From positions 1-31,579 of the IMG/VR virus record IMGVR_UViG_3300028581_000152: a stretch of DNA of 31,579 nt; one strand, written 5' to 3'. Source of the DNA: a virus. The notes beneath the pieces are model-generated. The model was not told the origin of the DNA. It saw nothing but the letters and a program-made list of their open reading frames with translations, and ran no database searches. Position numbers and translations under genes: made by a program. Positions 3,001-23,092 of the stretch are shown one piece after another (positions within the stretch are counted from its first letter, which is position 1; every line of letters begins with the position of its first letter).

Positions 3001-6000
3001 ATAGCTATTGCATAGTCATTTGTAACGCATAATGCTATACCAGTTGCATTAGCTAATGTTACATTTGTTCCACTTGATGTTAATGATACAGTAAACTCAT
3101 TACCAACAATAGAAGTAATATAATATTGTTGCTGTGCTATTAGTCCAGACGAAACGAATGATCCAGTATCTATCGCATCACTGAACACAATTGTGTCACC
3201 TACCTCATAATGATCGGTACTATTAACAACAATAGTATTTGTTCCACTATTTGTTTCTGAAACAATACCCTGTTCGCCTAATACTAAATTAGTGCCGTTG
3301 TGAATAAGTATAGGATCCGTCCAAACTAATCCATTTGTTGATTGGATGTTTACAAGCATTATTCCAGTAGCAGATGTAACATCAAATGTAGGGCCTGCTA
3401 TACCACCTGACACAGATGCAGATATAGTTATTTTGTTAGTTATGTAACTTATTGTCTTTATCCAATATGTAGTACCGGATACTATTCCACCAAACACTGC
3501 ACCTTGGAATGTTATAGGTGCATTTACCGCAAAATAATCTACTGACTCGCATACGATGCCATTATCAATCGCATCCGTTTCGATTGCGTTAACTGATTTT
3601 GGATCAGTATTTGGTCGTATTACTCCGGAGCCATTAAATCTATCAGCAGAATAATTACAGTTCAATGGCATCTCAACAAAACCAGTCGAGATATTATCAA
3701 CGAACGGTATAGTTTGCGAATTGGCTTTAACTAGTTGATTACCATTGCCTACTTCGTATACATCTAGTCGTAGTGTATGGTCTACTGCTAATGCTGTTCC
3801 GATAGTAACTACTTTATTCACCCAGTCAACAGTAAAATCATAAATTCTTATACTAGTATTTGTTGCAGTTGTAATATCAAACAATGATATATTTGCCGGG
3901 TTCTCTACAACACCTTCAAATGAGAACTCTGTTTGACCAGAGTCTGGTACTATTTCAGTAGAGACAACATTGTAACCAGCATGTCCGTATATTGACGTAT
4001 CCCAATCAGTGCCAGGTCTTGTTGTGACAATCATTGTTAAATTATCAGATACTACCCCAGGAACTAATTCTTCTGGACCATAACCTGCAGTGAATGCATC
4101 TCCTTGTACATCGTATACAGTAGGTGCAGTTTCAAACACAGATGAACTAATCCAAGTATTTCCATTATTTGTACTTGTAATGATAGCGTTATCATCACCT
4201 ACTACTATCCATTCACCATCAATACTGTTATATGTTATACCATTTAAATCTTTTGTTGTACCTGACGTTTTAATCGTCCAAGTATATCCATCAGATGATG
4301 TTTTAATAGTACCTGTATTACCCACAGCCATAAACAATGAGTTAGCATACAACACATCATTTAATGTAGGACCTGTTGGGTAGATGTACATAAATGTAGT
4401 TGAAGGTGGATTAGTTGCATTCAATGTAATTGGAGATCCACCTGATGTAGTGCTTACTTTAAGTTGTGTAGAAGAAGTAACATCAACTACATAGTAAGTT
4501 GTACCGGATGAAATCACATTAAATGACTGAGTAAATCTTACTGTATTACCTACTTGGAATCCAGTAGTACTGCCAACGTTAATAACGTTAGTGCTTGCGT
4601 TTACACTAATAATGTTAGATTCATTTAGTCCAAACCAATTAGTGCCGTTCAATGATGTATATATTACACCATCCTCACCAACAGCAACAATCATTGAACT
4701 GCTTGATGTAACACCGTTAAATCCTTTGTATGATACAATAGGAAGTGTAGTCCAAACGTATCCATCAGAACTGATTTTAATAACACTTGTTCCTTGTGTA
4801 GATCCGGATATTATCTCTTGACCATTACCAACAGATATAAAACCTACATAGCTAGGTATGTTTACATACGTTACACTGTTTAAATTATTTACTAATCCAT
4901 TAGTAAATGTGTCTACTTGTGCCCATGAGAACGTATCAGTTGATAATACAATGTTTTCTCCTACTGCAATCCAAATAGCATTTCCATAAGCAACACTTGA
5001 TAGTGAAGTAGATTCTACAGATAATAAAGTAGAATCGTAATTATTTATAGAATAGGGTGTAGCATCATAGGGTGTGAAGGCTCCGCCGGCAGTAGTAAAC
5101 ACTATACCATCAGTACTTGTGTAAATAGGTGTAGTTGCACTTTCACAAACTATTACGAACAATCCATTAGCATAGATTATGTCAGAAGCATTAACTGGAA
5201 TATTTACTAATTTGTTTATTGCCCAACTTGATGCATCTACGCTTAACAGTGATGCAGAATATTCAGGTGTATTTGCGGCTGCAACATATGTTGTACCGTT
5301 CCAAGAAATAGCAACAGTATCTACACTTGTTGGGTAGAATGGTTGGTCTTGCAATATAGTATCTAATGTATATTGATCTTCCGGAGCAAATGCATTATCT
5401 AAATATGTACTATTTGGATAAGTAATGCCTTCAATCAATTGTGTTAAATCTACACCAGGCATATTAACTGTAGGGTCATAGTAACCAATGATACGATCCA
5501 ACTCGTTGAGTTTTCTACTACCACTATTTAATAATTCCCATTTACCTATAATGAATTCATTATCATTGTTACTGATAATACATTGCCATACTTGGTTGTT
5601 ATACTTAACAATACTTTGATTGAAGTAGAATGGCTCTGGTAAAAAAACATAATCACCCAATGTGTATTCTGTTTCTAATACTAGACCATTTACCGGGACA
5701 TTTAATAAAGGATTAGCATATACTTCACATTGTGTTGCAGAAATTACTTTTAAGTAATATTGACGTACTATACCTGCAGGAGTACCAGAACCAATTACAC
5801 TTGTAACGTTTCCGTCTGATTCTACTGGTAATAAGAAATCATAATTTGGATTAGTGTTAGCGACTATTACATCAATTCCACTAACAGTTAATACCAAATC
5901 ATTTAATGGACTTGTTCCACCTAAATCAGTTCCAGAAATAGTGATAGTGTTATCAAACGTGTATCCTGAACCCGGATTTACTATATCAATGGTATATCCA

Positions 6001-9000
6001 CCTAATTTCTTACCAACATTGAATGTTGGCGAAGATATTGGATCTTGCGTAAAGACTGTTTCTAGTATTTCATCCGTTAATCCGATTGCAGGATCACCTA
6101 ATGTGTCTGTCAATGTGATATAAGGGTTATCCGCTGTTAATGTCATCTGACCATTGTCAGTAGTTAATACAAGGTCACTGCCTCCTATTGTATCAGTAAT
6201 AGTAAACGTGTCGCCACCTAAATCATAGCTATTGATAAAATATGTTACTAATGCAACTACATTACCAAATACCGCACCAGAGAATGATATTGGCATGCCA
6301 ATATAGAATCCGGTTGTTAGTGTGCCTGAGGCTAATGTATATTCATTAGTAGATGAAGATGAGCTTGCCACTTCAACAGCTAATGCACCGTTAGATACTA
6401 CATAGTATGTGTCACCTGCAGTTAATCCGCCGATGCTTTCAGACAATACAAACGGTAAGTTGTTGTATATGTTTGTTAATCCACCGCTTAGATATCTCAA
6501 ATATAAATAATCACCGTTGCTTGTAGCGGCTACTGTATCTCTTGTTACTAAATTACCATTAGTTCCTGATACACCAGTACCTACACTAGCTACAGTTGGG
6601 TAGAACGTAAACAATTGACCAGTAACTTGTCCTGGGCTTACTGGTAGTCCAACGTTCATTGTCATTGAACCTGTTGCAGTTGTTAGTTGTACCGCAGTAG
6701 TTTGGCTAGTTAATGTGCAACTACCTGTTGCAGTACTCAATGTTGTGACCGGTCCGTTGATAGTAGATGACAATGTAATTTGTGTACCATTGTAAATGCT
6801 TGCAACATAATAAATTTGACCTGCAACAAGACCACCAAACATAGTTCCAGTAAAGATTATCGGGTCATTCACACTTAATTCTAACGTAGAACCAACTGTT
6901 ACTAAGTTAGTTGTTACAGTAGTGTTAGTTGCTGTTAATATTAAAGGATCATTTGTTGTTGATATAGTAAATGTTTCACTATCTATAACAGTTATGATAT
7001 AGTAAGTTTCATTTTCAATGATACCACCAAATACATTTCCAACAAAGTATACAGGTAGACCAACATAGAAGCCACTAGTTCCCGCAGTACCTGTTGGTAG
7101 TGTTGGAGTTGTAATGAAGTTGGTTGTTAATTCTGTTGCTGTTACATCTAATATACCAGGATATGCAATTGTAACAATAGCTGTGTTAGTTACTTCACCG
7201 GCGTAGCAAGACAAGCCGGCTGCGGTAACGGTGTAGTCAGTTAATGGCAGTACTGAACCACTAACTGTAGTTGATATTGAGAAGTCACTCTCATTTATAA
7301 CTTCAGCTACATAGTAGGTAGTATTATTTGTAATTACTGGACCTACTGCGCCAACAAATTTAACTGGCATTCCAACATAGAAACCAATTGTTGATCCGGA
7401 AGCATTTGGTTGGGTACTGTCGTAAGTTAATCTCACTGCATCATTTGCGGCTACTGTTTCACCTACTTGACGGATAAATGATGACCATGTAAGCACTTGG
7501 TCATTTGTAATATCTTGTATTTCAAATGTTGCACCTTGTGCGCTTGCCAAAATATCATTAACCGGTGGCTGAGTTTGTTCTAATGTAATAGCAGAACTTG
7601 CAATTCTTGTGCTGTTATTAAATAAACCAGCATAAAAGCTACCATAAAAATTGTCAGGTGCCCACTCAGTTACTTGAGAATCATATGTAGTTCTATCAAA
7701 TCGTAATGTAATGATATTTTCTCTAGTTGGTAAAGAAGTTGAAACACAACTTGCTCTGGCACTTACTGCAATATTATTATTACTTCCGGTTCCAGTATTA
7801 GTTAGTACGACTCTATCATGGTCTTGTAATGCATTTGCGTAACTAGTATACAATGCAACAACATAGAAAGGAGTATTTTCTAATACTGCTAGATAATAAT
7901 ATTGACCATCATCTAATCCACCCACCGCAGTGGTATCAGTACCTACATAGTATTGTATTAAATCACCTGTTTGTACAAATTGAGTTTGTAATGTAATTGT
8001 GTTTGTTAGTACATCAACATCGGTACTAGCAAATGTTACAATCTCACTCGGATCAATTCGAATTTCTGGCAATACTTGATAACCTTCACCTGGATCGATT
8101 ACATCAATTCGTAGAATCGTATCTAAGTTCATCACAGGTTGTAATATAGCCGCACGTCTTGGTGCTGGATATATAGTTGTATCAATATATGCAGTGACCT
8201 TTGGTGGTTCAGCATAACCTCTACCGCCATTTAATAACAACACAGGAGGTAAGTCAATGATAATTTGTTCACCGGGGAGATGATTTGTTATGGTAGTACC
8301 GTTAACTCCACGAGTCAATCCACTCAATGTGCTATATGCTCTATCAACACTACTGTATGCAATTTCCTCTTCACCTATTAATATAACACCTGTAGTTGGG
8401 AAGCCGTATACATTATCAACAACCATTGATATGCTATTCAATGTCAAATATGATAATAATAAAGTGATTGGATAATCATTTACCCCGGTGATGCTTAAGC
8501 CTTGATTATTGAACCAATTGATATATGGTTGAGTTTGCCAGATAGGGTCAGTTGGCAAGTATTGATTGATACTACTTGGATTAGCGTATACTAATTCAGG
8601 AGTGATATACTGTTGAAACTGTGTGTTATATTGTGCAGGTAAATCAAAATCAGTTATCTCACCTTCGTACACATTAGTGCCAGTGTATTTAAATAAGAAG
8701 TCTTTGATTACCACATGATAAGGTTTAGCTTCATTTAAATAACCTGCTAAGAATTCTTGGTTATCACTTTGGAATACTTCTAATGGTAATAATTCACGTA
8801 TGGTATGTGCAACATCTATGAATGACGTTTTGTTTAACCATGGTAAATAATTTTGACTCTCAATTGTTTCACTAACAATATAATTGAACATCAAAATTAA
8901 TGATTTATTTCTAAACAATAATAAATTGCTAGGTAATTCTTCATTTACTGCACGAATAATACTACGTGTTTCTTCACTTGGGAAGGTATCAAAAGGTGTC

Positions 9001-12000
9001 GTGTCAAAAAAGTTATCACCAAATCCTATTCGTGCTTCTGCATAATCCCATAATGAACTACTAAACTGTATTGTACCATTTTGCAATCCAATACGGACCC
9101 ACTCAATGCCATCATACACATATGTTTCTTGTAATCCGTCACCATTCTTATTAACAGTAACAATTAGTCCAAGTTGAGCATTGATTGGAGCTAAATCATA
9201 ATATGATTCCACTAACATAGCAGACTTAGTATTATCATTATATCCAGGTGCCCACCAGTTAATTAATTCCCAGTAATCTTGTGTGTTGTAGAATAATTCT
9301 GGTGCACCAGGCCAATTTGGGTTATCAACTGTAGAAGGATTGATTGCACCTTCTGTGAATAAGAATTTCAAACTGCTTGTTTCAGCTAATGGATATTGTG
9401 CTAATACTGTGTTATAGAATTGCAAATAGTTTTCTAATGCTTTAAATCTATTGTAGAAGAAACTTTGACGAGGACGTACTAATATACCACTCTGTACTGG
9501 TTTTGGTAAGAACGGATCAGGAACAACAGCGCCGGTTTGATTGACACCACTGAAACTCTCAAGCATTCTGTTATACAATGATTCCGGTACTACTGTATCT
9601 CCTATGCCAGGTAGTCCTGGTAAGAAATCATCAGCATAATTAGAACGTATTAAACTGTACACACTATGCGAAACATCGTCATTTGTTCCTGTAGCAAAGC
9701 CAATATGCAATGCAGTATCAGTCGCATTGATATTACTACCGCAATTATATAAACCAAATACATTTGGTTGTATTGCTGCCATATATGAAATACCTGTAGA
9801 CAATGGGGTAGCTATATATGATTCACATATAGTATCTGATAATGTTTTTCCTATTTGGTTAAACACAATGTTTGTATTTCTTACCCAATAGTAATATACA
9901 GGTACAAGAGCTCCTGTGCTATTCAATCTATATTCAATTGCATAGTCATCAATACTACGAGGTGTGCCTGGTCCTTGATATACGATTGGTTCAACGTCAC
10001 TGGTAACCCAACTATATACTTTAACGTCACTGCCTGGGAATACTCTACCCCACCATTTACTATTATAAACAACATCATCACTTTGATGATAGTTTACAAA
10101 TCGTGTAGTGCTTGTATCGAACCATAACTTACCTAATTGTCCCGGACCCCATACGGTAGAACCTTTATTCGTTGCATCAGGACTATTGTAATTTGCAGGA
10201 TCAGTGTTAGATACTATGTCTAAATTCTCACGTACTGCGCCCAATAATTTACCTTGCAACGGATCAATATAATCTAAATTGTCTAATGTATTGTTAGTTG
10301 ATACACTATATAACTGAACGTTTTGTATAGCATCAGTATCAACGATTGGTGCAGAATTACGATACACTATCCAATCAGATTCACCTGAACTATTGTTATA
10401 AATCACTACTTGACCATTATCATATCCAGGTCTAAAGTTAGGTGTACCAATGATAACGCTGTTATTATTAAAATCTAACGCTGTACCATAATATGGTTGG
10501 CTACCATAATCTTCATTCAGTGCATTAACGCTTTGAGCATATACATATGCACCAGAATTATTTACATTTTCATTGTAAACAGGCAAGTAATCGTACATAT
10601 ACACTGCGCCTGCATTAACAAAACTATCTATGAACTGTGTTGTATTGTTATCAAACAATGTATCATTGTCATAGTTTTCATCATCACTTGCATCAAACGT
10701 TGTTTCTGCATATCGTGCTGATGCCGGAGCACTTACTACAAATGAACCACTAGAGTTAAATTTAATAGTAGAACCAAATTGTGTTCTACCTTGACTATGC
10801 GGGTCATTGATTAATTGTGTTTGTGTATATAACTGTATACCCAATTGGTCTAATACATCAGCATCTAAAACAGACACAGTTAACTTAGCATTGATAAACG
10901 CTAAATCTACACTGATAACTTGAATAGTTAAAATGTTATTTGAAGCAGATGCAGTAACGTTTGTGATGTTTGCAGAAGTAATAGCATTGGCAGCTGCCGT
11001 TGCATTTCCTGCAGGAATATTTACAGCATAACCATTTACTAATATTGTAGTAGCCGCAGTTACGTTGCACTCAGTAGTGCCGGTAACTATACCATAACTG
11101 CTACCTCCATATGTATAACGATAAACAGCACCTTCAGCATTTTGACTGTTAATTTCAAACGGTGCGCCAATCAATAATTCATTTGCATAAGTGTCTACAT
11201 CTAAGCTATAACCAAAGTTTGTTCCAACTTCAGGATTAGCATCTACTGATGTGAATTCTTGTGTTAATACAAATTCAGAACCGCTTACAGTAATGATATC
11301 ACCTGCAGTTAATGATTGGTAAACATTAATATTTGTTCCAACAACACCGTATTCATTATCATCAATCAATGTCCCATTAACGCTTACAAAGATTGGTTCA
11401 GTTTGTTGAACAGCGGACATTGAACCAGTGTCGGTAATTAATTGTAATGTTGAACCACCTCGTTCAGTAGATACAGTGAAAGTAGTTCCTGATGGTTTAG
11501 CCAATACATAATAAACTGTGTTTAATGATACTCCACCAAATACAGTTCCAGTAAACACGATAGGATAACCAACTGTTAGAACAGAACTGTCAGTACACGT
11601 AAAACGGTCAGTACCTGCGTTAGTATCAGTGACCGTCACTGGTGTTGTGATTGGTGTAAATATCAAACTAAACGTTTGTGGGGCAAACGGTGAGCTTGTA
11701 AATGGTGCCTCAAACGTTTGTACTAACCTTTCAAAAGAGTAAGCAGTACCTAAATCAGCAACAACGGTATCATTTTCTGGCGCACTAACAGCTACAATAT
11801 TACCATAATAGTTTGTGGCAATAGAATAACCAAAACTATCACCTGCACTTAATCCGGCAACTGTAATCGTGTCAGATAATTCATATAAAGTAGTTAAATC
11901 AGATTTACGATAGACATAAACTAAATTCTGTTCATATGCAGAGATGTATAGCCAATTTTGGTCACCAGATAATGCGATTGAAGAACCCCAGTTGGTTACA

Positions 12001-15000
12001 GAATCGTCATCAGGTGATTCAATTACTTGTACTTCTTGCAATTCGTTAAGTAAATTGTTAATTACTAAATCGTAAATATAAACTTTTCTGTCAGTATAGG
12101 CTGCACCAGTTGGTTGTGATATTACAAATAAATTATCTGAATATGCAATCGTAGAACCAAAAGATATACCCTCAGTAATTGTTTGAACAATACTATAAGA
12201 ATCAAAAACCGAGCTATAAGAATAACGATATGCAACACCGGTCTCTGCGTCACTAATCAAATAACCTAAATTACTTGTTTGTGCAACTGCACTACCATAT
12301 GTTAATGAATTAGTTTTTAATAATTCATCTTCATATACATAGTTTAAACTCTTACGATATACAGCCCAAGAGCCATCATCATTTTCATCAACCCAAACTT
12401 TGTTCTTTACAAATTCACTGTCAAGTAAAGGCAAGTTATTAATATCACTTGGTGTAGCTACACGTTGAGATGAGAATTTCATCGCAACACCTTCACCGGT
12501 GATTGTTGTCAATGCCGATGATAAACTTAATAGAATAGTTACTCTAAATGGATCTACTACTGTTGCAACAATTCTGTAACCATCAATATTACTATTAAAA
12601 TTAATAATAGCAAATGGTTGATATTTTGTTAAATTGTGCGGTGTTGCAAACTGTAGTGTGACAGTTCCATTTAAGTTATTGATTGCACCCACTACTTGTC
12701 CGGCACTTGTTGGAGTATATACTTGCCAAGTGCTATTATAATCAGCTAACCATACGTATTCATTTACATATAAATGTGATAGAGGAGTTGTTGCAGTATT
12801 CAATCCATTATAATAGTACGATGAGATTTTAACATCATTAAAGTTAGTATAACCTGCATCCGGGAACACTCTATTTGGTGTATCTGACGGTAATGTGGGT
12901 AATACATTTGGATTATTTATAGGTCTTCCATAATTAAAAACTGAATATAACGGTACTTCTTGTTCTACACCATCAGTATACACACCGGTAGTAAGTCCAA
13001 CAATAGATGGATTACCTGTTAATTGATTTTGATTTAATCTAAAATCAACAAAGTTATTGTTTAATACACCACCAAACTCGCCGGTCTTAATAGCCCAGTT
13101 TTCATACACATCATAATCAATACCACCTTGTGGTAAGTTTAATCCTTTAAAACTATTTGCCGCAATTCGTGTACCTTTTTCTTTGATAAGATTTTTATAA
13201 ACATTAACCTGTGTTATGTCTGTCAAATCAGCTAATGCTAAGTAATCACGTGGTCTATATCCAATCAATGACCAACTTAGTAGGTCACTATCTTGGTCTA
13301 AATTAGTTTTGTTTGTATCATAAAACAATGTTGCTTCATATGAACGTGTTGAACTGTTAGGCAGTAACCCTTTCTGAATCTCATTATAATCAGTTTCTTT
13401 CCAATACTGTTCTTCAAATATTTCCTTTGCATTTAATACTTTTAATGCAAACCAATATTTGTTTTTATACTTAACAATACTGCCTCTTGTATACTTTTGA
13501 TTAGTACTCCATTCTTCAATATTATTTTGGTTAAGAATAAAGCCTTGTGCATCAATAGTACCATTCCAATCAGCAGACTTTGTGCCTCTGGTTAAGATAC
13601 GATTTTGTCTTAAGCCAGTTACTAAATTATACAATACGTCATTGAACACAGTAACATTATCAAACACAATACCGTGTTCAAAGTTACTAATGTTAAACTG
13701 ACCATACGCAACAGTATCACCTTCATTTAATGGTGTTGCACTAAAGAACGTACTATCACGTGTTACTGATAATTCATTACTTTGTATTGGGTAGAAGTTT
13801 TGATTTAAAATAAAGTTTTGTCTTTGTAGTGTTAGAGGTTGAACTATATGACTATCTTTATTAATAGTAATCAAATTAGCGGCTGGATTTAAGTTAATTA
13901 AACTTCCTGTTTCCCAACCACTCTGTGCCCAGTATAATAATTCCGTAACCATTTGACGCCAGTTAACATCTATACCAGATTCTATTTGGTCAAATAATAC
14001 ACCTTGTGTTAATAAATATCTTCCATAGTTAGCTATAAATTGACTTAGTGATTGTAAGTCAAGAAACTCAGTTCCGTATGGTACAATATTAGTTTTGTTT
14101 TCAGTATAGTCATTTGCTAGTTGAACTGATATATTACCCACTGTAACTTTATTGTAGTTTCCATTAATCTTAGGAGTTACCGTAGTGAAGTATGCGGTAT
14201 CTTGTGAGTTACCAAATACTTTCCAACCAGCGTTTGTGCTTTGCACAACAACGCCGCTATAAATTACAGTGGTTATAGGTACATTATCATACAATACTAC
14301 ACTATAACTTTCGTCTGGAATTAGTAATGATGCATTTCTACTGTTTGGTGTTCCCTTTTCAACATAGAAACCAAGCAAACTCTTATCACTAAATCCTGCC
14401 AATCTATAAATCAATCTTACATCTAAATTATCAAATAAGTCTGTAATATTTTGTGTGGCATTAATACCAACTTGCTTTTCATAATCAACTATCCAGTTTA
14501 TATAACTTGTTTTTGCCGTTCCATTACCATATATGGCAACATCACTAATCACTAAGTGACTGCGATTATTAACTAGATATTGATTAAACTCCGTACTAAA
14601 TTTGTAGTTGTCTACATCAAAACCCAAGTTAAAGAATTTTGCAGGTTTAGTAAGAGCAAGAATCTTCATTAAGTCGAAAGGCCAACTACTGCTTCTGCGG
14701 TATGAGAATTCAACTGGGCCTACATCTCCTACAGCCCATTCATTTCTAAATGTTCTGAAATTATAGTTACCCATCACTGCATCAAACGGGGATAATAAAT
14801 TACCTGCACCATCTACTGGTATTACACTTAATAATTCTTCTCTAATAAATTCAGGCAAGACAATTGGATCACCGTTATTCCAGTTGATGCCCGCAGCCAT
14901 ATCTCCCCATAATACCAAGTTATCACTTGTGTATGGTGCGGCGCCGTATCTATCAGTCCACCAAGTTGGTTGATTTGTAAAGCCAATCATTTCCCAAGGT

Positions 15001-18000
15001 GTGGTGTTTGGAGTACTTGTATCATAGAAGTACTCATATATACCTCTCCAGAATCCTTGTGGAATTGGTTGTCCATTAATTCTATTACCGGACTGGGTGT
15101 AATTATAACTAAACTGGTCATTGGGTTGATAAAATTGTTTCTTATATTCAATGCGATTCTGCCCAACCCAATTTAAGAAATACTGACTGTATATTTGTAA
15201 GACTTCATCATATGAGTAGTTGGTTGTTCTAAAGAATCCCGGAATAACATCATATTCAGTAATAGGAACTATGTCTGTTAATTTAAGATTATTATAAACA
15301 CGTGATTCAAATTCCAATAGTGCTTGGTCTCTAAAGTCAACTAAATTTCCATCAATATATTCTCCATATAATTTAGTATATGAACCATCATGTCCTTGAA
15401 TAAAATATGTAGGTTGAGAATAATTACTATCTAATACAACTCCGGGAATAAATGAGGGGTATAATCCTAATTTAGTAGGAGTGTTTGGTACATAACTTCC
15501 AAAAGTCTGATTGTATTCTTTAATTGTTACAATGTCTCCAGCAGATAAGTCTTTTGTAATAGTCAATGATGGAGTATCTGTACTTACTGTATAATCCTGA
15601 TTAACAATCAATTGTTGTGTTGATGTAAAGTTATCTACTGTTGTAGTCAAATAAACTAATACGCCATAATAATTTGCGGTATCAAAATTATAAATTCTTG
15701 TTAAAGGGTAGATACTTGTATCTAATGAGTTAGCAAAAGTATATGTATTAGTAGCATATGCCGCTTTACTTGGCAACATATCACTCCAGAAAAAAGGTTC
15801 TGATTCTGTTTTGTTTTGGGTAATTTGATCCAATGCATCATCTAAAATAGTTGCAGGAGTCTGATATATGTTATATTCAGTTCTATCTATAGTATAAACC
15901 AATAACGACCTAAAAGTAATATACTGCTGACTGTTATACTGCAAAGAATTAATAAGATTATTATTTTGTGACCTTAACAACGATCCAGGTAATGCTAAAC
16001 TTGCACTATTTTGAATAATCTTATTTCCCCAAGGCACAAGATTACCTAAGTCACGATAATTGTTTGAGCCAAAAACGTCGCCGGTTGTGTTTGGGTTGTT
16101 ATAGAAAATACTTTGATATTGACCGCGAATGTCACCTACGTTAACAACAGATACATCATCATTGAACGGATTGTTTTGTAAGTTGATAGGTATTTGATAG
16201 TATGCAGTTGGACTTACCTGATCGCTTAATAATGTGATTTCAACTACTGTATCAATCAGTGGATTAGGTACAGTGAAATTTACAACTGTAGTATTATCTG
16301 TAATGGTAAAAGTATAAGTTGATGTATCTTGTAATACGTTATTAACGTAAACTTGAATATTAGGCCATACTGTATTTGTTGAGGCAGCTATATCACAAGT
16401 ATAGGTTGTAGTTGCTTCAGATGCAACATAGTTAAAAGAAAATATTTGATACTGACGACTTTCTGCAACAGCGGTTTGCCATCCTAATTGTCTAACAACA
16501 GTTGTTCCAGATGTGTAATTATATACATAACCTGTATTAACTTTTTGTGTAATTGGATTAGTACCACTTACATAATTAAATGTTTCACTGTTTAATGGTA
16601 CGTCAAAACTGATATCACCTACGTTATTAACTGCACTATAACGTAGTGGGAATCCTAGTACAATATCTTTAATTCCAGAACCAATTCCATAACTGAATAA
16701 TTTATTGCCAGCAAATGATGTACCTACATATACATCGGTGTTGCCAAAACTAATGCCATCATTATCAAATATATCAAAGTATGGTGCTTGATTAACTGTT
16801 GTTTTTTGTTGTGCTATTAACCATTCAATACCATCAAAGTAAAAATCTTTACCTTCATTATTATATCCCTTAAATGCAAAGGTGCATTCCAACGGTAATA
16901 CTAATCCGTCACTTGCTTCAGTAAGAGTAATTACCGGCGTGCCTGTACCTTGTATATCAGAAAATCTTACAACATATATTTTGTTTCTAACATTTTCATT
17001 TGTATCGGCAGAAAAAACAATTCTTGCACCATCATATAATGAATAATTATCATTTGATAAATCATTTGCTACCAATGATGAACCTGTAGTGGCAGGAATC
17101 GTTGTAGAAGTATCCCAAGTCACAGTAAGTGTTAAGGTTGACGTACCTGTAATAGTAGTAATTTGAGTATTTCTAGGTAAGACATTTGTAGTATCACTTA
17201 TGTATTGCCCAACCTGAAATGTGCCGGTAACATCTGATGCGGCAATAGTAATTGTCGTACTTGTTCCAGTAACACCTGCAATAGTTGCAGTATAAGCAGT
17301 ATATGTTTCAACGTCTGGCCAATAATTTTCTTGACCGGCTACAAGTGTAAATGCATCAGTTGTTCTATCATCAAAGAAATCAATTGGATCTTTGCCAACG
17401 ACACCATTATTAAATAACCTTAAATTAGGATAAAACTCAATGATTGGGCGTTTAGCTTTATTGTCCTGTGTTGCATATATTGTTGCAATCGCAGGATTAT
17501 TATTATAGGTAGCAGTTGCATTGATAACATCAATGTGGAACCAACGGTTGCTTCTTGACCAAGCATTTTTATCTATACTGTTTCGTGCAATCGTAATATA
17601 ATCTTGATACACAGGGATGTATAGTGTGCTATCATAGTTACCTATATCATATGGCAATGAATCAAATGGGGTGTATGCACCTTCAGTAAAAGGTTCCGGT
17701 GTAATAAGGTCTGCTACGTTTAATAATTCAATTGCTGTACCAACACCTTCTACATAATATTCACCATCTTTATAGCTTGTAGGAAAAATATCACCACTGA
17801 AACTTACTTTAAGACCATTAGTAAACACTACACCATTTGGACTTGTATATTGTTGTTGACCTAATATTTCAGTAATATCTATTTGATTAGTTGAATTGCT
17901 TTCAATCAATCTAATGATACCAACCTTGTTAGCACTTGTGCCGTCTTGGTAATACAATGTATCTAATATAGCACTTAGATATGGTACAAGATTAATAGAT

Positions 18001-19175
18001 CCACTAGTGTTGCGGAAAAAGTTTCGTGCTTTCCATTCTGTGCCATAGTTTGCAGTAATCTTTTCATTTGTTGGAATGTTACTTGCAGGAACTAATCTTA
18101 ATACAGGATCAGATGGGTCACCTACATAAGTTATTGTGTAGAATGTAGCAGATACATCCGTATAAAAGCCACCTTCAAAATTATTGAAATCAGCACTAGT
18201 GCCAGGTGGTGTGTAGCTCGCACCACCATCTTCATCAAATAATGTAGTATCATAAAACTTAGAAGTAAATCCTTGTTCATCAACAACTCCGGTATTGTAA
18301 AACATAACAGTAAGACCTTCAAGTCCTGTCACGCCATCAATGTTGCCTACATCACTTAACAACTGACCATTGATTTGGTCGAACGGTGTAGTAGACACAA
18401 CGTCTACTAAATTATTACCCGGGAAGTTATATTCATCTTGTGCATTTTTATATGGTACTGTAAATATAACGACACCGGTAGTCGTGCCATTATTTTCAAC
18501 ACCCAATACATCACGTGTTTGTAAATTAAGTTGTTGTGGATCATATCCAGTAATACCCGGTTTACCTTGAATCCAAAATTCAGTAGGCTGATTTACAGTA
18601 AACGTATATGTGCCACCACGAATCAATGTTAATGTGGGATTGGTTGTGCCGGCTGGATTAACGTCACTCGATATATTATAACCATTAGGTAGACTTCTAA
18701 CTGTGTAGTCTGTGGCAGTATAAACAATATCTGTGGAAATATTAACAGATGGTGCACCTGTTGGCAACCAATAATATTGATTAAAGTTAATTATTTTATC
18801 TAAGTTAGTAAAGCTATCCCAAGAATAAAATTCACTGTTGAATAATCTATCATTGTTATCTGTTAATGCACCTTCTAATTTTAATGCATCTATGATACCG
18901 GGATAACTGATAAAATCTTTAGCAGTATTTGTATTTGTTTTGGTAAAAACAACTCCAGGATCTAATTGATAATCTCTGCGAACTTTTGTAGGTTCTACTA
19001 CGTAATTATCTTTAGCGTTAATACCATAACCAAATTTACTACCAATATAACCCTCAATCCTCATCGTATTGGGTTGGTCAACGATTTGATCCAGTGTTGC
19101 CCCCAAGAATTGACTATTAGTAGGTGTTTGGAATATCTCTGGTAAAAAATTTAGTGTTCTAATTCGTGCTGCCAT
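1..19175 (-). CDS. Giant virion structural protein (baseplate/fibre), at least 6,391 aa, C-terminus beyond window
   Basis: The ORF starts at ATG 19175-19173, after an AGAGAG ribosome-binding site, and stays open to position 1. Stretches I translated across the whole length contain no stop. The N-terminus (MAARIRTLNFLPEIFQTPTN) and a YYWLP motif near residue 130 recall the very large structural proteins next to gp6 in T4-like cyanophages and pelagiphages (from memory). Visible parts in order: N-terminal half (residues 1-2280) rich in Trp/Tyr/Asn, with WPFDLMKILALTKPAKFF near residue 1490; an FG-GAP propeller (2290-2930); a conserved block near 3170-3570 with KTSFIDVAHTIREL and YLNEAKPYH; beta repeats with TYYV cores; a BNR/Ycf48-like propeller (4610-5020); and tandem GTTDFTLIG repeats (5540-6100). 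It follows gp6, where T4 carries gp7 and gp8, so it may be a much enlarged gp7-type wedge protein or a fusion. A role in the baseplate periphery or host contact is inferred. Confidence 0.93.
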   Translation of the reverse strand, partial: MAARIRTLNFLPEIFQTPTNSQFLGATLDQIVDQPNTMRIEGYIGSKFGYGINAKDNYVVEPTKVRRDYQLDPGVVFTKTNTNTAKDFISYPGIIDALKLEGALTDNNDRLFNSEFYSWDSFTNLDKIINFNQYYWLPTGAPSVNISTDIVYTATDYTVRSLPNGYNISSDVNPAGTTNPTLTLIRGGTYTFTVNQPTEFWIQGKPGITGYDPQQLNLQTRDVLGVENNGTTTGVVIFTVPYKNAQDEYNFPGNNLVDVVSTTPFDQINGQLLSDVGNIDGVTGLEGLTVMFYNTGVVDEQGFTSKFYDTTLFDEDGGASYTPPGTSADFNNFEGGFYTDVSATFYTITYVGDPSDPVLRLVPASNIPTNEKITANYGTEWKARNFFRNTSGSINLVPYLSAILDTLYYQDGTSANKVGIIRLIESNSTNQIDITEILGQQQYTSPNGVVFTNGLKVSFSGDIFPTSYKDGEYYVEGVGTAIELLNVADLITPEPFTEGAYTPFDSLPYDIGNYDSTLYIPVYQDYITIARNSIDKNAWSRSNRWFHIDVINATATYNNNPAIATIYATQDNKAKRPIIEFYPNLRLFNNGVVGKDPIDFFDDRTTDAFTLVAGQENYWPDVETYTAYTATIAGVTGTSTTITIAASDVTGTFQVGQYISDTTNVLPRNTQITTITGTSTLTLTVTWDTSTTIPATTGSSLVANDLSNDNYSLYDGARIVFSADTNENVRNKIYVVRFSDIQGTGTPVITLTEASDGLVLPLECTFAFKGYNNEGKDFYFDGIEWLIAQQKTTVNQAPYFDIFDNDGISFGNTDVYVGTSFAGNKLFSYGIGSGIKDIVLGFPLRYSAVNNVGDISFDVPLNSETFNYVSGTNPITQKVNTGYVYNYTSGTTVVRQLGWQTAVAESRQYQIFSFNYVASEATTTYTCDIAASTNTVWPNIQVYVNNVLQDTSTYTFTITDNTTVVNFTVPNPLIDTVVEITLLSDQVSPTAYYQIPINLQNNPFNDDVSVVNVGDIRGQYQSIFYNNPNTTGDVFGSNNYRDLGNLVPWGNKIIQNSASLALPGSLLRSQNNNLINSLQYNSQQYITFRSLLVYTIDRTEYNIYQTPATILDDALDQITQNKTESEPFFWSDMLPSKAAYATNTYTFANSLDTSIYPLTRIYNFDTANYYGVLVYLTTTVDNFTSTQQLIVNQDYTVSTDTPSLTITKDLSAGDIVTIKEYNQTFGSYVPNTPTKLGLYPSFIPGVVLDSNYSQPTYFIQGHDGSYTKLYGEYIDGNLVDFRDQALLEFESRVYNNLKLTDIVPITEYDVIPGFFRTTNYSYDEVLQIYSQYFLNWVGQNRIEYKKQFYQPNDQFSYNYTQSGNRINGQPIPQGFWRGIYEYFYDTSTPNTTPWEMIGFTNQPTWWTDRYGAAPYTSDNLVLWGDMAAGINWNNGDPIVLPEFIREELLSVIPVDGAGNLLSPFDAVMGNYNFRTFRNEWAVGDVGPVEFSYRRSSSWPFDLMKILALTKPAKFFNLGFDVDNYKFSTEFNQYLVNNRSHLVISDVAIYGNGTAKTSYINWIVDYEKQVGINATQNITDLFDNLDVRLIYRLAGFSDKSLLGFYVEKGTPNSRNASLLIPDESYSVVLYDNVPITTVIYSGVVVQSTNAGWKVFGNSQDTAYFTTVTPKINGNYNKVTVGNISVQLANDYTENKTNIVPYGTEFLDLQSLSQFIANYGRYLLTQGVLFDQIESGIDVNWRQMVTELLYWAQSGWETGSLINLNPAANLITINKDSHIVQPLTLQRQNFILNQNFYPIQSNELSVTRDSTFFSATPLNEGDTVAYGQFNISNFEHGIVFDNVTVFNDVLYNLVTGLRQNRILTRGTKSADWNGTIDAQGFILNQNNIEEWSTNQKYTRGSIVKYKNKYWFALKVLNAKEIFEEQYWKETDYNEIQKGLLPNSSTRSYEATLFYDTNKTNLDQDSDLLSWSLIGYRPRDYLALADLTDITQVNVYKNLIKEKGTRIAANSFKGLNLPQGGIDYDVYENWAIKTGEFGGVLNNNFVDFRLNQNQLTGNPSIVGLTTGVYTDGVEQEVPLYSVFNYGRPINNPNVLPTLPSDTPNRVFPDAGYTNFNDVKISSYYYNGLNTATTPLSHLYVNEYVWLADYNSTWQVYTPTSAGQVVGAINNLNGTVTLQFATPHNLTKYQPFAIINFNSNIDGYRIVATVVDPFRVTILLSLSSALTTITGEGVAMKFSSQRVATPSDINNLPLLDSEFVKNKVWVDENDDGSWAVYRKSLNYVYEDELLKTNSLTYGSAVAQTSNLGYLISDAETGVAYRYSYSSVFDSYSIVQTITEGISFGSTIAYSDNLFVISQPTGAAYTDRKVYIYDLVINNLLNELQEVQVIESPDDDSVTNWGSSIALSGDQNWLYISAYEQNLVYVYRKSDLTTLYELSDTITVAGLSAGDSFGYSIATNYYGNIVAVSAPENDTVVADLGTAYSFERLVQTFEAPFTSSPFAPQTFSLIFTPITTPVTVTDTNAGTDRFTCTDSSVLTVGYPIVFTGTVFGGVSLNTVYYVLAKPSGTTFTVSTERGGSTLQLITDTGSMSAVQQTEPIFVSVNGTLIDDNEYGVVGTNINVYQSLTAGDIITVSGSEFVLTQEFTSVDANPEVGTNFGYSLDVDTYANELLIGAPFEINSQNAEGAVYRYTYGGSSYGIVTGTTECNVTAATTILVNGYAVNIPAGNATAAANAITSANITNVTASASNNILTIQVISVDLAFINAKLTVSVLDADVLDQLGIQLYTQTQLINDPHSQGRTQFGSTIKFNSSGSFVVSAPASARYAETTFDASDDENYDNDTLFDNNTTQFIDSFVNAGAVYMYDYLPVYNENVNNSGAYVYAQSVNALNEDYGSQPYYGTALDFNNNSVIIGTPNFRPGYDNGQVVIYNNSSGESDWIVYRNSAPIVDTDAIQNVQLYSVSTNNTLDNLDYIDPLQGKLLGAVRENLDIVSNTDPANYNSPDATNKGSTVWGPGQLGKLWFDTSTTRFVNYHQSDDVVYNSKWWGRVFPGSDVKVYSWVTSDVEPIVYQGPGTPRSIDDYAIEYRLNSTGALVPVYYYWVRNTNIVFNQIGKTLSDTICESYIATPLSTGISYMAAIQPNVFGLYNCGSNINATDTALHIGFATGTNDDVSHSVYSLIRSNYADDFLPGLPGIGDTVVPESLYNRMLESFSGVNQTGAVVPDPFLPKPVQSGILVRPRQSFFYNRFKALENYLQFYNTVLAQYPLAETSSLKFLFTEGAINPSTVDNPNWPGAPELFYNTQDYWELINWWAPGYNDNTKSAMLVESYYDLAPINAQLGLIVTVNKNGDGLQETYVYDGIEWVRIGLQNGTIQFSSSLWDYAEARIGFGDNFFDTTPFDTFPSEETRSIIRAVNEELPSNLLLFRNKSLILMFNYIVSETIESQNYLPWLNKTSFIDVAHTIRELLPLEVFQSDNQEFLAGYLNEAKPYHVVIKDFLFKYTGTNVYEGEITDFDLPAQYNTQFQQYITPELVYANPSSINQYLPTDPIWQTQPYINWFNNQGLSITGVNDYPITLLLSYLTLNSISMVVDNVYGFPTTGVILIGEEEIAYSSVDRAYSTLSGLTRGVNGTTITNHLPGEQIIIDLPPVLLLNGGRGYAEPPKVTAYIDTTIYPAPRRAAILQPVMNLDTILRIDVIDPGEGYQVLPEIRIDPSEIVTFASTDVDVLTNTITLQTQFVQTGDLIQYYVGTDTTAVGGLDDGQYYYLAVLENTPFYVVALYTSYANALQDHDRVVLTNTGTGSNNNIAVSARASCVSTSLPTRENIITLRFDRTTYDSQVTEWAPDNFYGSFYAGLFNNSTRIASSAITLEQTQPPVNDILASAQGATFEIQDITNDQVLTWSSFIRQVGETVAANDAVRLTYDSTQPNASGSTIGFYVGMPVKFVGAVGPVITNNTTYYVAEVINESDFSISTTVSGSVLPLTDYTVTAAGLSCYAGEVTNTAIVTIAYPGILDVTATELTTNFITTPTLPTGTAGTSGFYVGLPVYFVGNVFGGIIENETYYIITVIDSETFTISTTNDPLILTATNTTVTTNLVTVGSTLELSVNDPIIFTGTMFGGLVAGQIYYVASIYNGTQITLSSTINGPVTTLSTATGSCTLTSQTTAVQLTTATGSMTMNVGLPVSPGQVTGQLFTFYPTVASVGTGVSGTNGNLVTRDTVAATSNGDYLYLRYLSGGLTNIYNNLPFVLSESIGGLTAGDTYYVVSNGALAVEVASSSSSTNEYTLASGTLTTGFYIGMPISFSGAVFGNVVALVTYFINSYDLGGDTFTITDTIGGSDLVLTTDNGQMTLTADNPYITLTDTLGDPAIGLTDEILETVFTQDPISSPTFNVGKKLGGYTIDIVNPGSGYTFDNTITISGTDLGGTSPLNDLVLTVSGIDVIVANTNPNYDFLLPVESDGNVTSVIGSGTPAGIVRQYYLKVISATQCEVYANPLLNVPVNGLVLETEYTLGDYVFLPEPFYFNQSIVKYNNQVWQCIISNNDNEFIIGKWELLNSGSRKLNELDRIIGYYDPTVNMPGVDLTQLIEGITYPNSTYLDNAFAPEDQYTLDTILQDQPFYPTSVDTVAISWNGTTYVAAANTPEYSASLLSVDASSWAINKLVNIPVNASDIIYANGLFVIVCESATTPIYTSTDGIVFTTAGGAFTPYDATPYSINNYDSTLLSVESTSLSSVAYGNAIWIAVGENIVLSTDTFSWAQVDTFTNGLVNNLNSVTYVNIPSYVGFISVGNGQEIISGSTQGTSVIKISSDGYVWTTLPIVSYKGFNGVTSSSSMIVAVGEDGVIYTSLNGTNWFGLNESNIISVNASTNVINVGSTTGFQVGNTVRFTQSFNVISSGTTYYVVDVTSSTQLKVSTTSGGSPITLNATNPPSTTFMYIYPTGPTLNDVLYANSLFMAVGNTGTIKTSSDGYTWTIKTSGTTKDLNGITYNSIDGEWIVVGDDNAIITSTNNGNTWISSSVFETAPTVYDVQGDAFTAGYGPEELVPGVVSDNLTMIVTTRPGTDWDTSIYGHAGYNVVSTEIVPDSGQTEFSFEGVVENPANISLFDITTATNTSIRIYDFTVDWVNKVVTIGTALAVDHTLRLDVYEVGNGNQLVKANSQTIPFVDNISTGFVEMPLNCNYSADRFNGSGVIRPNTDPKSVNAIETDAIDNGIVCESVDYFAVNAPITFQGAVFGGIVSGTTYWIKTISYITNKITISASVSGGIAGPTFDVTSATGIMLVNIQSTNGLVWTDPILIHNGTNLVLGEQGIVSETNSGTNTIVVNSTDHYEVGDTIVFSDAIDTGSFVSSGLIAQQQYYITSIVGNEFTVSLTSSGTNVTLANATGIALCVTNDYAIAIADEGITAKIVFANQYTQANDFVVLSVFGETAPVQYGYTVPEVELFELTTAVTEFTLSNYVGGDNAKNAIVEHNGRRLVETSDYTIDFNTETLSLNFGTSAGDTVAVTSYNLTDRQYLHTTYGGTFSGSTTNSFFIGSTTHTPGYDANITAGQFLVGSEYVITKVGTTDFTLIGSTQINAGSFVIGTSYTIDGLGTTDFTLIGATQVAAGSFVIGNVYIINSIGTTDFTLIGASSNTIGLEFVATGVGTGTGTALNNIFVATGIGSGTGTSLESLFTASGAGTGTGTAAIGFDGGVITTAGSFTIGATYEILTVGTTNFTLIGSVDNNVGTMFTATGVGTGTGTAGTGLYSPGPDYLTLSSGNTNSLNINDAITFTGTTFGGIVANQTYYVVNIISSTEFAVSETPGGSAIQLTTDFGSMIGITNPPTVAPISGVDNLITAPITVGITSTTITTNVVTCSSTIGFSPGQPIMFKRSNPATPYGNILCDGTVYFIKTVVNGFDFTISETPSGPVMVQVTTSGAILAEVSGNPAVSITTGVPHNLAENDIVRIDGTLGSVQLNNNTYYAKIISATQIALYNSAYDPTANAINDPVTIVSTWTGGGYVWLDKTFTITTTLATATTASNDRITVSSSLELILGTPIIFTGSDLLGGLESEVTAGSFTEGNTYQINSQGTTDFTLIGALNNNVGTNFVATGVGTGTGTATAIYYVYDKPSATTFRVTAVRDGDVFALTNDTGSMNVSQWEQGNVDRLWVTINGYRIPSSALRLNPDNNLSILSTVEPGDVVIITSMIPTATPNQAVYLQNVNKTGVPSVYRANSLTRTWLTETLQDTDDTIYVEDVTMITETIIQNETAPAEIDGIISIGLEGDKQAICQVIVYNNDTTQTVDPADYYIAVEATAPILKITGGVSGGELLTITVILGNLIYVNGEQIGFTTVNFDTNTVTGLQRGANGTGEQTFIPKYSEVYGILSSNKLPTVYNALTWNSYNYNLVDGDPLQIS
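135..240 (-). repeat. GEQI...GLQRGANGT module, second copy
   Basis: The translation reads NLIYVNGEQIGFTTVNFDTN followed by TVTGLQRGANGTGEQTF. It resembles a segment near 8400-8280 (GVILIGEEEIAYSS followed by LSGLTRGVNGT). Both fit a short beta module with the pattern G-E-(Q/E)-I-x-(F/Y)...G-L-x-RG-x-NGT. Two diverged copies in one ORF suggest internal duplication. Confidence 0.55.
885..1028 (-). repeat. Isolated copy of the AGSF...GTTDFTLIGA repeat
   Basis: This single unit reads AGSFTEGNTYQINSQGTTDF followed by TLIGALNNNVGTNF and a GVGTGTGTA strand. It matches the long form of the units at 1960-2552, but about 300 residues of other sequence lie between them. Confidence 0.8.
1230..1900 (-). 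repeat. Second cluster of TYYV-type beta repeats
   Basis: Three consecutive units carry the same core: DAITFTGTTFGGIVANQTYY (about 1895-1835, ending in GSMIGIT near 1740), FSPGQPIMFKRS with a diverged VYFIKTV core (about 1610-1520), and a more diverged unit with NNNTYYAKI (about 1330-1300). They belong to the same family as the cluster at 6150-7390. Confidence 0.7.
1960..2552 (-). repeat. Tandem AGSF...GTTDFTLIGA protein repeat in the giant ORF
   Basis: Reading the minus strand, four consecutive units share AG(S/Q)F-x-(V/I)-G-x-x-Y-x-I-x-x-x-GTT(D/N)FTLIG(A/S). The first two units (2552-2466 and 2465-2379) are exactly 29 residues (87 bp) each. The third and fourth carry an extra Gly/Thr strand (FVATGVGTGTGTA and FTATGVGTGTGTA). 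Between them are two further truncated GTGTGT strands (about 2240-2137). A fifth, isolated copy lies at 1028-885. Protein identity is much higher than DNA identity, so the array is old or under selection at the protein level. Confidence 0.85.
4130..5330 (-). other. BNR/Ycf48-like seven-repeat beta-propeller within the giant protein
   Basis: Seven repeats follow the pattern (I/V)-x-Y/W-x-N-x-x-(F/W/Y)-(I/V)-x-V-G-x(5-10)-(I/Y)-x-(T/S)-S-x-(D/N)-G-x-x-W, typical of BNR (Asp-box) or Ycf48-like propellers. Examples are GLFVIVCES...IYTSTDGIVF (about 5080-5200), IWIAVGENIVLSTDTFSW (about 4920-4990), MIVAVGEDGVIYTSLNGTNW (about 4635-4700), LFMAVGNTGTIKTSSDGYTW (about 4280-4345) and WIVVGDDNAIITSTNNGNTW (about 4150-4220). 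Blades 5 and 6 are separated by about 75 residues that form one TYYV-type beta repeat. In known proteins this fold occurs in sialidases, in Ycf48 and in glycan-binding domains. I see no sialidase catalytic set, so binding is likelier than catalysis. The repeats are seen; the role is inferred. Confidence 0.72.
6150..7390 (-). repeat. Cluster of TYYV-type beta repeats in the giant ORF
   Basis: Four or five adjacent units share the order G(F/L)-x-V-(G/N)-x-P-(I/V)-x-F-x-G-x-(V/M)-FGG-(I/L)-...-(T/I)YYV-x-x-(I/V)-...-(F/I)-(T/S)-(I/L)-S-(T/S)-T-...-G. Examples: FYVGMPVKFVG...TTYYVAEV (7390-7290), FYVGLPVYFVGNVFGGI...TYYII (7070-6960), DPIIFTGTMFGGLVAGQIYY (6870-6790), a degenerate unit near 6470-6350 and FYIGMPISFSGAVFGNV (6320-6200). 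Several end in a GSM or GQM turn followed by a new strand. Further single copies lie near 11590-11410, 4560-4430, 3540-3380 and 3210-3040. The units look like small beta-sandwich or beta-solenoid modules. Confidence 0.75.
10390..12303 (-). other. FG-GAP/integrin-alpha-like seven-repeat beta-propeller within the giant protein
   Basis: Translation of the giant frame gives seven blades of the pattern (F/Y/W)G-(S/Y/T)-x-(I/L/V)-x(6-10)-hydrophobic-(I/V)-(G/S)-(A/T/Q)-(P/Y/E), most ending in a V-Y-x-Y strand. Blade cores are YGSAVAQ (about 12290), FGSTIAYSDNLFVISQP (about 12155), WGSSIALSGDQNWLYISA (about 11985), FGYSIATN...VAVSAPEND (about 11840), FGYSLDVD...LLIGAP (about 11220), FGSTIKFN...VVSAP (about 10780) and YGTALDFNNNSVIIGTP (about 10495). 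Seven is the usual number for FG-GAP propellers, which in integrins and related proteins bind ligands and metal ions. Between blades 4 and 5 lies an insert of about 160 residues holding a TYYV-type beta repeat; between blades 5 and 6 lies another, of about 100 residues. The blade pattern is seen directly; the fold and a binding role are inferred. Confidence 0.75.
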
Positions 19176-19196: not shown

Positions 19197-19204
19197 TACT
19201 TATC
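19197..19204 (-). promoter_or_regulatory. Possible late promoter motif GATAAGTA before the giant gene
   Basis: On the minus strand GATAAGTA ends 21 bp before the giant gene's ATG and overlaps the gp6 stop codon. It differs by one base from GATAAATA before gp6 and before the whole block, and resembles the T4 late motif TATAAATA. It is the weakest of the four matches. Confidence 0.4.
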
Positions 19205-22200: not shown

Positions 22201-22571
22201 CTAATATTAGTTACTTTTAAATAACCCTGTCCTGCATTATTACGCTTTGGGTTATAGCTTACTAAGTTGGCTAGTTTAACAACACTGTCTCTACGTTCGG
22301 CAGTATCAATGAAGTTTTCACGTGTATTTAAATCGTTGCGGAAAGCAAGACCTTGACCCATAAACGCAATAACGTCAAGTAAAGCAATAAATTCGCTAGA
22401 CTCAATGTAATCGTTAAACGTTTCAGGATAATACACTCGCAGATAATCTATAAAACTCTTACGCAGAGTTTCATAATCATAGCTTTTAAAATCTGCTTCT
22501 CGGAAGGTTTGGTAAATGGCCTGCCAATTTTGCACACCAAATATTGCTGATTGTCTTGAACTTGTAGCCAT
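19200..22571 (-). CDS. gp6: Baseplate wedge protein gp6 (enlarged, 1123 aa)
   Basis: In T4, gp6 dimers join neighbouring wedges into the continuous baseplate ring. The N-terminal 125 residues match the T4-like gp6 pattern (FREADFKSYDYETLRKSFID, then YYPETFNDYIESSEFIALLD, then AFRNDLNTRENFIDTAERRDS). A second conserved block near residues 407-435 reads LRAPARYYTQNRMVNGEDY, the typical J-like baseplate segment. The C-terminal 95 residues (SDSEIRSAVLSAMNSYF...FYFSELGAYLHA...LVPNDP) fit the conserved end of the family. T4 gp6 is about 660 residues, so some 460 extra residues lie mainly between residue 490 and 1020, rich in Asn/Tyr/Thr. The start at 22571 has an AAGAGAA ribosome-binding site. gp25 lies upstream and the giant gene downstream, the usual wedge gene order. 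Confidence 0.92.
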   Translation of the reverse strand: MATSSRQSAIFGVQNWQAIYQTFREADFKSYDYETLRKSFIDYLRVYYPETFNDYIESSEFIALLDVIAFMGQGLAFRNDLNTRENFIDTAERRDSVVKLANLVSYNPKRNNAGQGYLKVTNISTTENITDINGVNLSNQTILWNDPANANWLEQFNTVVNATLINSQRVGRPGNSADLLGVKTDEYSINIPPASLPIVPFTSTVDTINMNFELVSATSLDEDYVYEIPPAPSGKMNMMYRNDRLGYGSPNTGFFFYFKQGTLQTYDFNLAQQISNQVVDIDIQGINNTDTWLYQINASNGGRTLWRLVDSVYANANLQTETSYKKVFSVVSRFNDQVSYTFGDGVFSEAPVGTFRAYVRAGNALTYTIDQTEMQGIQVTIQYISRAGRTEALTIGLALQTPASTAQARESLANIKLRAPARYYTQNRMVNGEDYTNFPYTLYSSIIKSAAINRSSIGVSKNLDLLDPTGKYSSTNSFASDGGLYQNSDNGNLLLTITNTGDIIKFLTDNLALALADNRARQYYLQNYPRYNINNASGDGTVYWNTSTTDANSITGYFYNIDGSANTPIATGTYNTHNMKYVTKSALIKVTAPNGAYFDDNNRLVYGIASASDTTYFWTTVLNVIGDGYNNGEGNFSNGSGPVTLNGYIPTGAIITQVIPSFGNTLPTAVINECVIRMELNQSFSLLFNNALLITQDRWSIDAYNATGWFVNFNSVGNNRYQIEYKSLRYYFGSVADTRFWYESGKLVYDPFTGKILADFVKVLPSNTQPNSNAPLARPVQMNVIGQTVESDGYVNDFEVEVASIDINNNEIVVDPDFFQTVTGYVTGSSNTGIYTFFELIEDAVNLSRYQLIATSDIIYQYPTLTNIEVIKYEYPLGQVFYAFSENVFYTTVQDTSVTTPYYLVVEQPQYSMQPGRQAILYQYRHNSNNTTRIDPATTNIIDLYLVTQAYYTAYTNWIQDTTGTVPKPDVPTINELQQAYGNLDDYKMLTDSVIPNSVRFLPLFGTKAPAQLQGTVKVIKSPSTNASDSEIRSAVLSAMNSYFNINNWSFGDTFYFSELGAYLHAQLGDLVSSVVLVPNDPTMSFGDLYEIKSAPYEIFVNGATASDVVVIAALTPVQLQIR

Positions 22572-23084: not shown

Positions 23085-23092
23085 TATTTAGA
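23085..23092 (-). promoter_or_regulatory. Late promoter-like motif TCTAAATA before gp25
   Basis: Minus-strand TCTAAATA lies 17 bp before the gp25 ATG and overlaps the last codons of the gp5-like gene. CTAAATA-type late motifs have been proposed in T4-like cyanophages (from memory). The spacing matches that of the motif before gp6. Confidence 0.42.

Follow-up and report, generated by a model that had tools for sequence, protein, structure and literature searches.

A predicted seven-bladed FG-GAP propeller in a hairpin of a giant virion protein of aquatic jumbo phages, with a putative role in host contact

Can contact with the host surface be built into the body of a phage baseplate, and is this what a domain in the middle of a giant structural protein is for? 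The question is raised by positions 1 to 31,579 of IMG/VR virus record IMGVR_UViG_3300028581_000152 (31.6 kb; hereafter the window), assigned to an uncultivated freshwater jumbo phage and consisting mostly of one minus-strand gene cluster. An initial annotation had proposed that positions 10390-12303 encode seven integrin-like FG-GAP blades within a baseplate protein. These coordinates are correct, corresponding on the minus strand to residues about 2292-2929 of a single 6391-amino-acid (aa) frame; the observation itself is right and slightly stronger than stated, and the reading is right on fold and place. The features on which the argument turns are as follows.

3..19175, minus strand: giant virion structural protein of at least 6391 aa, an uninterrupted frame that continues beyond the start of the window (PHROG 10938 'virion structural protein', E 1.4e-240)
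12630..15497, minus strand: upstream conserved flank, residues 1227-2182, common to the RaK2, CBB, PA5oct, Atu_ph07 and SCTP-2 homologues
12354..12368, minus strand: hairpin strand 1, WAVYR, residues 2270-2274 (motif search, relatives with an empty site)
10359..12350, minus strand: predicted seven-bladed FG-GAP (integrin-type) beta-propeller, residues 2276-2939 (AlphaFold2 model, structure matches, family conservation)
12219..12299, minus strand: blade 1 core, 2293-2319 (core pattern, conservation)
12069..12161, minus strand: blade 2 core, 2339-2369 (core pattern, leave-one-out hidden Markov model (HMM), conservation)
11907..11990, minus strand: blade 3 core, 2396-2423 (core pattern, conservation)
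11730..11834, minus strand: blade 4 core, 2448-2482 (PF14312 match, core pattern, conservation)
11112..11216, minus strand: blade 5 core, 2654-2688 (core pattern, leave-one-out HMM, conservation)
10590..10778, minus strand: blade 6 core, 2800-2862, including a conserved FD...FD loop (conservation)
10395..10490, minus strand: blade 7 core, 2896-2927 (core pattern, conservation)
10359..10373, minus strand: hairpin strand 2, WIVYR, residues 2935-2939 (motif search, relatives with an empty site)
8556..10376, minus strand: downstream conserved flank, residues 2934-3540 (homologue comparison)

The seven cores occur in order, starting at residues 2293, 2339, 2396, 2448, 2654, 2800 and 2896, although the literal motif originally given for them, [FYW]GSx[IL], fits three and fails on the other four. 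A looser pattern (FG, a hydrophobic strand and a GAP-like turn) is found in all seven blades and at one further place in the giant protein, as against a maximum of three matches per 650-aa stretch in 300 shuffles; because it was written after the seven cores had been seen, this count is partly fitted. The expected FG-GAP family match was obtained in part: Pfam FG-GAP_2 (PF14312) scores above its cut-off on the excised window domain (33.6 bits versus 23; E 4.4e-8), but only one blade is placed. Of 28 near homologues, 24 match the same family at E<=0.01; its scores are 45-68 bits in relatives L144, L174, L133 and L353 and 29.8 bits in L160. Leave-one-blade-out HMMs clearly recovered blades 2 and 5, ranked 4, 6 and 7 at the top of the decoys and did not recover 1 and 3, and a propeller sequence profile detected no relative in the Protein Data Bank (PDB). 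The strongest sequence evidence pointing to seven blades is conservation across the wider family, with the FG glycine of each blade kept at 94-100% over 170 homologous inserts (~95 effective sequences) and GAP-type prolines kept in several blades. A match on most blades, which the initial annotation had anticipated, is thus given by structure and family-wide conservation and not by Pfam. In the blade-6 loop, F2827, D2828, F2841 and D2842 are 93-100% conserved across the clade's propellers by column statistics; a regular expression for the loop fitted just 6 of the 170 inserts.

An AlphaFold2 model of residues 2225-2965, computed with 28 homologues as input, has a mean predicted local distance difference test score (pLDDT) of 74 and a predicted template modelling score (pTM) of 0.77, with low confidence at both ends and in the blade 6 loop (about 2820-2855 and 2865-2892). 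With VIA-align, the best 50 ranked PDB entries were all integrin alpha propellers (Z 34-37, ~2.6-3.0 A, ~335-355 residues), in alignments running from model residue ~52 to ~715. The plain Foldseek order gave mixed propellers with poor template modelling (TM) scores, as expected because the ring has big insertions. With the seven conserved glycines, the model makes it near certain, by prediction, that the domain is the closed seven-bladed FG-GAP propeller that had been proposed. It shares the fold and the chain order 1-7 with the integrin alpha propeller (e.g., 9t3y chain A and 5e6u chain A); unlike integrin alpha, it has neither DxDxDGxxD loops nor leg domains, is not part of a membrane receptor and carries two unrelated insertions, and integrins were not found by sequence in the PDB. 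We take the predicted likeness to the integrin head as one of shared fold and not of common function.

The two insertions, each the size of a domain, were missed by the initial annotation.

11256..11726, minus strand: insertion following strand 3 of blade 4, residues 2484-2640 (~157 aa) (alignment, model, repeat census; strand placement inferred)
10806..11108, minus strand: insertion following strand 3 of blade 5, residues 2690-2790 (101 aa) (alignment, model)

The former is a 'VNG..L..AGD' domain with a nested 'VFTGTVFGG' module, and more modules of this type ('..VFTGTVFGG..YYV..') are found in the C-terminal half of the giant protein; the latter appears, by eye, to resemble the flagellin-hook IN motif. 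The usual FG-GAP strand order would put both on one face of the propeller. Another module, '..GTTDFTLIG..GTGTA', lies at the corresponding loop of blade 3 in relatives L002, L034 and L035 and before blade 4 in L005 and L007. In the window protein this ~45-aa module is repeated at residues 5540-5760 and 6050-6095, the copy at about 6050-6095 interrupting a 'VFTG' module; in named phages it gave one weak match only.

How does such a ring come to lie in the middle of a conserved protein? WAVYR and WIVYR, the sole such motifs in the giant protein, enclose the propeller, and the hairpin that they form, WVD..WAVY(R/K) - W..YR..VD, stands empty in L139, L220, L225 and L367; in the propeller-free L139 it reads '..IWVDENTNNKWAVYKKGVYS-WAQYRTQVDSVD..'. 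All 8 of the 8 cultivated homologues compared skip window residues ~2183-2925. Insertion of the propeller at the turn of a beta-hairpin is, accordingly, near certain. One propeller-based and four flank-based IMG/VR scans, together with cultivated phages, provided 346 loci with both flanks and 249 distinct inserts, of which 170 have the FG-GAP propeller and 79 do not, as separated by profile score (gap 224 to 285 bits; the lowest-scoring positives were classed by score, not each inspected). Inserts of ~680 aa had seemed to be something else, profile A1, of near homologues, having recognised 118 of the 346 sites, but this was ruled out by FG-GAP repeats in 5 of the 6 judged by reading and a Pfam scan. 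In a tree built with FastTree from the flanks only (155 rows, 1051 columns; a quick method, root not inferred), one clade with full support holds 100 rows, 98 of which have the propeller, as against 0 of the 55 rows outside it; this distribution needs 3 changes versus 46.5 in shuffles. The pattern fits a single gain, ancestral to this large clade of aquatic jumbo phages. Locus L139 (on a 353-kb contig), nested in the propeller clade, has an empty hairpin at L139:8332-8988, the only exact empty site seen inside the clade; by parsimony it is a loss, which supports the propeller having been dispensable at least once. Also inside the clade, L365 lacks the propeller and has a GDSL/SGNH acylhydrolase (E 4.3e-15) between the flanks, upstream of the hairpin (L365:5869-8007). 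CBM_5_12 scored above cut-off in the propeller-free L327, L287 and L247. The SCTP-2 insert looked LamG-like, but Pfam did not bear this out. Among the cultivated phages of the collection none was seen to carry the propeller at the hairpin site: tblastn with the propeller as query found no match in 50,697 phage records, and two divergent propellers searched in phages gave one weak match only, in a gene elsewhere in phage Phosso. The Phosso sequence (PV764938.1, 68424-68828) is a separate gene with weak FG-GAP propeller similarity, in a phage without a propeller at the giant-protein site.

The place of the giant protein in the virion is suggested by its family and its neighbours.

28965..29276, minus strand: small baseplate wedge subunit, gp53-like by position and size (PHROG 7145)
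23088..26348, minus strand: gp5-like baseplate hub
22618..23067, minus strand: gp25-like baseplate wedge
19200..22571, minus strand: gp6-like baseplate wedge (PHROG 10646, E 3.7e-256)

The cluster runs from a virion structural protein through the gp53-like small wedge, a second structural protein, the gp5-like hub, the gp25-like wedge and the gp6-like wedge to the giant frame, which, directly after the gp25 and gp6 genes, occupies the position of T4 gene 7. Judged by this gene order, the giant protein would be a baseplate wedge at the gene 7 position, and it is probably a component of the tail baseplate, as the initial annotation had it. Its frame comprises 6407 codons in contig L003 (116 kb; 100% identical over the 6273 residues compared). 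BLAST blocks link it to eight cultivated homologues, and the PHROG 10938 family members of jumbo phages RaK2, CBB, PA5oct, Atu_ph07 and SCTP-2 are 3326-4555 aa long. Membership of a virion protein family is supported by two of these homologues known to be present in virions: CBB_236 of CBB was detected there with 21 peptides (PMC5259590), and the sequence record of PA5oct gp355 is marked ESI-MS/MS (electrospray ionization tandem mass spectrometry). Against the PDB, flank profiles A2 and A3 gave no match and A4 none convincing, while an N-terminal profile gave a weak tube-protein match (E 0.077). In relative L029 the giant protein stops at 3599 aa despite having both flanks and the propeller, its C-terminal half being missing or split.

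We favour putative binding of the host surface by the propeller and give this reading a probability of roughly one half. In a closed propeller the two ends are adjacent, and the domain can therefore hang from a hairpin as a knob while the protein body is undisturbed. Inserted once, in the ancestor of the clade, into the hairpin turn of a protein at the wedge position, it would be displayed in several copies per baseplate, a number taken by analogy with the T4 wedge, and, together with separate fibres, would most likely touch a polymer or protein on the host surface, as either a first or a secondary contact. We infer the copy number, exposure and ligand; the argument for exposure is that the propeller is less conserved than its flanks (mean identity to the window protein 0.53 versus 0.66-0.68) and blades 1-4 less than blades 6-7 (pairwise identity 0.50 versus 0.61). 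The surface-acting domains near the site in relatives (GDSL/SGNH in L365; CBM_5_12 in L327, L287 and L247) plausibly speak for host contact, and by analogy the baseplate propellers of phi11 and phiKZ, described below, are a plausible precedent. Several points weigh against this reading. FG-GAP propellers also serve in protein-protein assembly, and the integrin Ca2+ motif DxDxDGxxD occurs 0 times in the window propeller and in 0 of the 170 homologous inserts. The relatives gave few CBM and GDSL matches, and these are close to the hairpin, not exactly in it. Two genes downstream of the giant gene, in contig L003/L131 of the same phage, there is a fibre-like gene of 410 aa that matches virion proteins and encodes an autoproteolytic Peptidase_G2 domain; recognition built into the baseplate would therefore add to fibres and not replace them, and the earlier suggestion that it stands in place of a separate tail fibre is not supported. 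Lastly, propeller identity tracks flank identity (r = 0.88), which indicates mostly vertical descent, whereas a main determinant of host range would be expected to be exchanged; the idea of a frequently swapped host-range cassette was not supported when tested on this basis.

The propeller might instead be an assembly platform on which another virion protein, such as a short fibre, a whisker or a neighbouring wedge, docks, and we regard this as a serious rival, if one that we would back only tentatively. Its presence in 98 of 100 clade members, mostly inherited with the flanks, would suit such a role, as would the strong conservation of blades 6-7 with the FD...FD loop, the most conserved part of the ring and what a fixed partner would require; Kelch propellers occur in CBB virion proteins, with protein binding suggested (PMC5259590). 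However, phages outside the clade, and L139 within it, manage without the propeller, and blades 1-4 and their loops are variable and take in whole extra modules. Fixed docking through blades 6-7 could also coexist with host contact. That the ring is mere filler, accreted in an insertion-tolerant protein and having no specific binding role, seems improbable to us: the same protein does have repeat modules in many positions and a second propeller that is present in some relatives and absent from others, and the spacing between the flanks in propeller-free loci ranges from 178 to 2563 aa, but FG glycines kept at 94-100% in seven blades over highly diverged phages, with one exact empty site only within the clade, are not what one would expect of filler. 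Least probable is an enzyme, for example a lyase or glycosidase propeller; some seven-bladed propellers are enzymatic and phage endosialidases carry propellers (PMC4901313), yet the Pfam and fold matches here are to FG-GAP and integrin propellers, which are binding domains, and no enzyme family matched the propeller.

The second propeller is of a different kind.

4155..5336, minus strand: second seven-bladed propeller, Asp-box type, residues 4614-5007 (Asp-boxes, Pfam matches of homologues, model)

The window copy has five Asp-boxes by regular expression (SxDGxxW); among 36 homologues, PSII_BNR was matched in 11 and DUF6242 in 13, whereas neither was matched in the window's own copy. A model (pLDDT 84, pTM 0.81) has virginiamycin B lyase 2z2o as its best match (Z 30.3), and residues 4614-5007 are thus predicted to be an Asp-box (BNR/YCF48-like) seven-bladed propeller. 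It is cleanly absent from L005, L006, L069 and L110, of which the first two share ~80% identity over most of the protein; given such absence in close relatives, the giant polypeptide gains or loses whole propellers.

Elsewhere in the window, a late sigma factor at 30684 lies on the strand opposite to the cluster, and a 426-aa structural protein (29276-30556) has the short tandem repeats VTESVFDPRQE and SDPNTNIGEE near its N-terminus. After the fibre-like gene, L131 (3923-12777; same phage as L003) encodes at least 4 radical-SAM proteins, one with SPASM, possibly a modification cassette.

Propellers in phage baseplates are known; what is new here is the FG-GAP type, the mid-chain insertion in a hairpin and the clade-defining distribution. 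A literature search of partial coverage found no report of FG-GAP in a phage baseplate, which says little. According to its citation in PMC4901313, phiKZ gp131 has a C-terminal seven-bladed propeller (PDB 4GBF) at the baseplate periphery, suspected of receptor binding; as described there, and compared by description and not by fold, it resembles the present domain in being seven-bladed and in the baseplate of a jumbo phage, and differs in being C-terminal, whereas ours is inserted mid-chain in a giant wedge-position protein. The receptor-binding protein of Staphylococcus phage phi11, for which binding of a cell-wall sugar has been proposed (PMC4901313), is likewise a baseplate protein with a beta-propeller, but this has five blades and belongs to a separate trimeric protein on a coiled-coil stem. 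The giant structural proteins of RaK2, CBB and PA5oct are of the same family (PHROG 10938) and stand in the same place after gp6, with downstream flanks 23-32% identical to the window, yet at 3326-4555 aa they have no FG-GAP propeller at the site. In the related jumbo phages CBB and GAP32, virion proteins also carry propellers (PMC5259590), of the Kelch and RCC1-like kinds; these are encoded by separate genes and belong to other propeller families.

We therefore propose, tentatively and with less confidence than in host binding as such, that the clade gained once an integrin-type binding head in the hairpin of its wedge protein, so that the host meets a ring of propellers on the body of the baseplate and not just a detachable fibre, on a polypeptide that also has a second, replaceable propeller of another family. 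The phage propellers in the literature cited here are separate or terminal receptor-binding domains. If the proposal is true, the baseplate body can itself provide surface contact by way of a mid-chain FG-GAP ring kept in nearly a whole clade, and the empty site of L139, the enzyme near the site in L365 and the second propeller that comes and goes would be natural comparisons for linking domain content to host.

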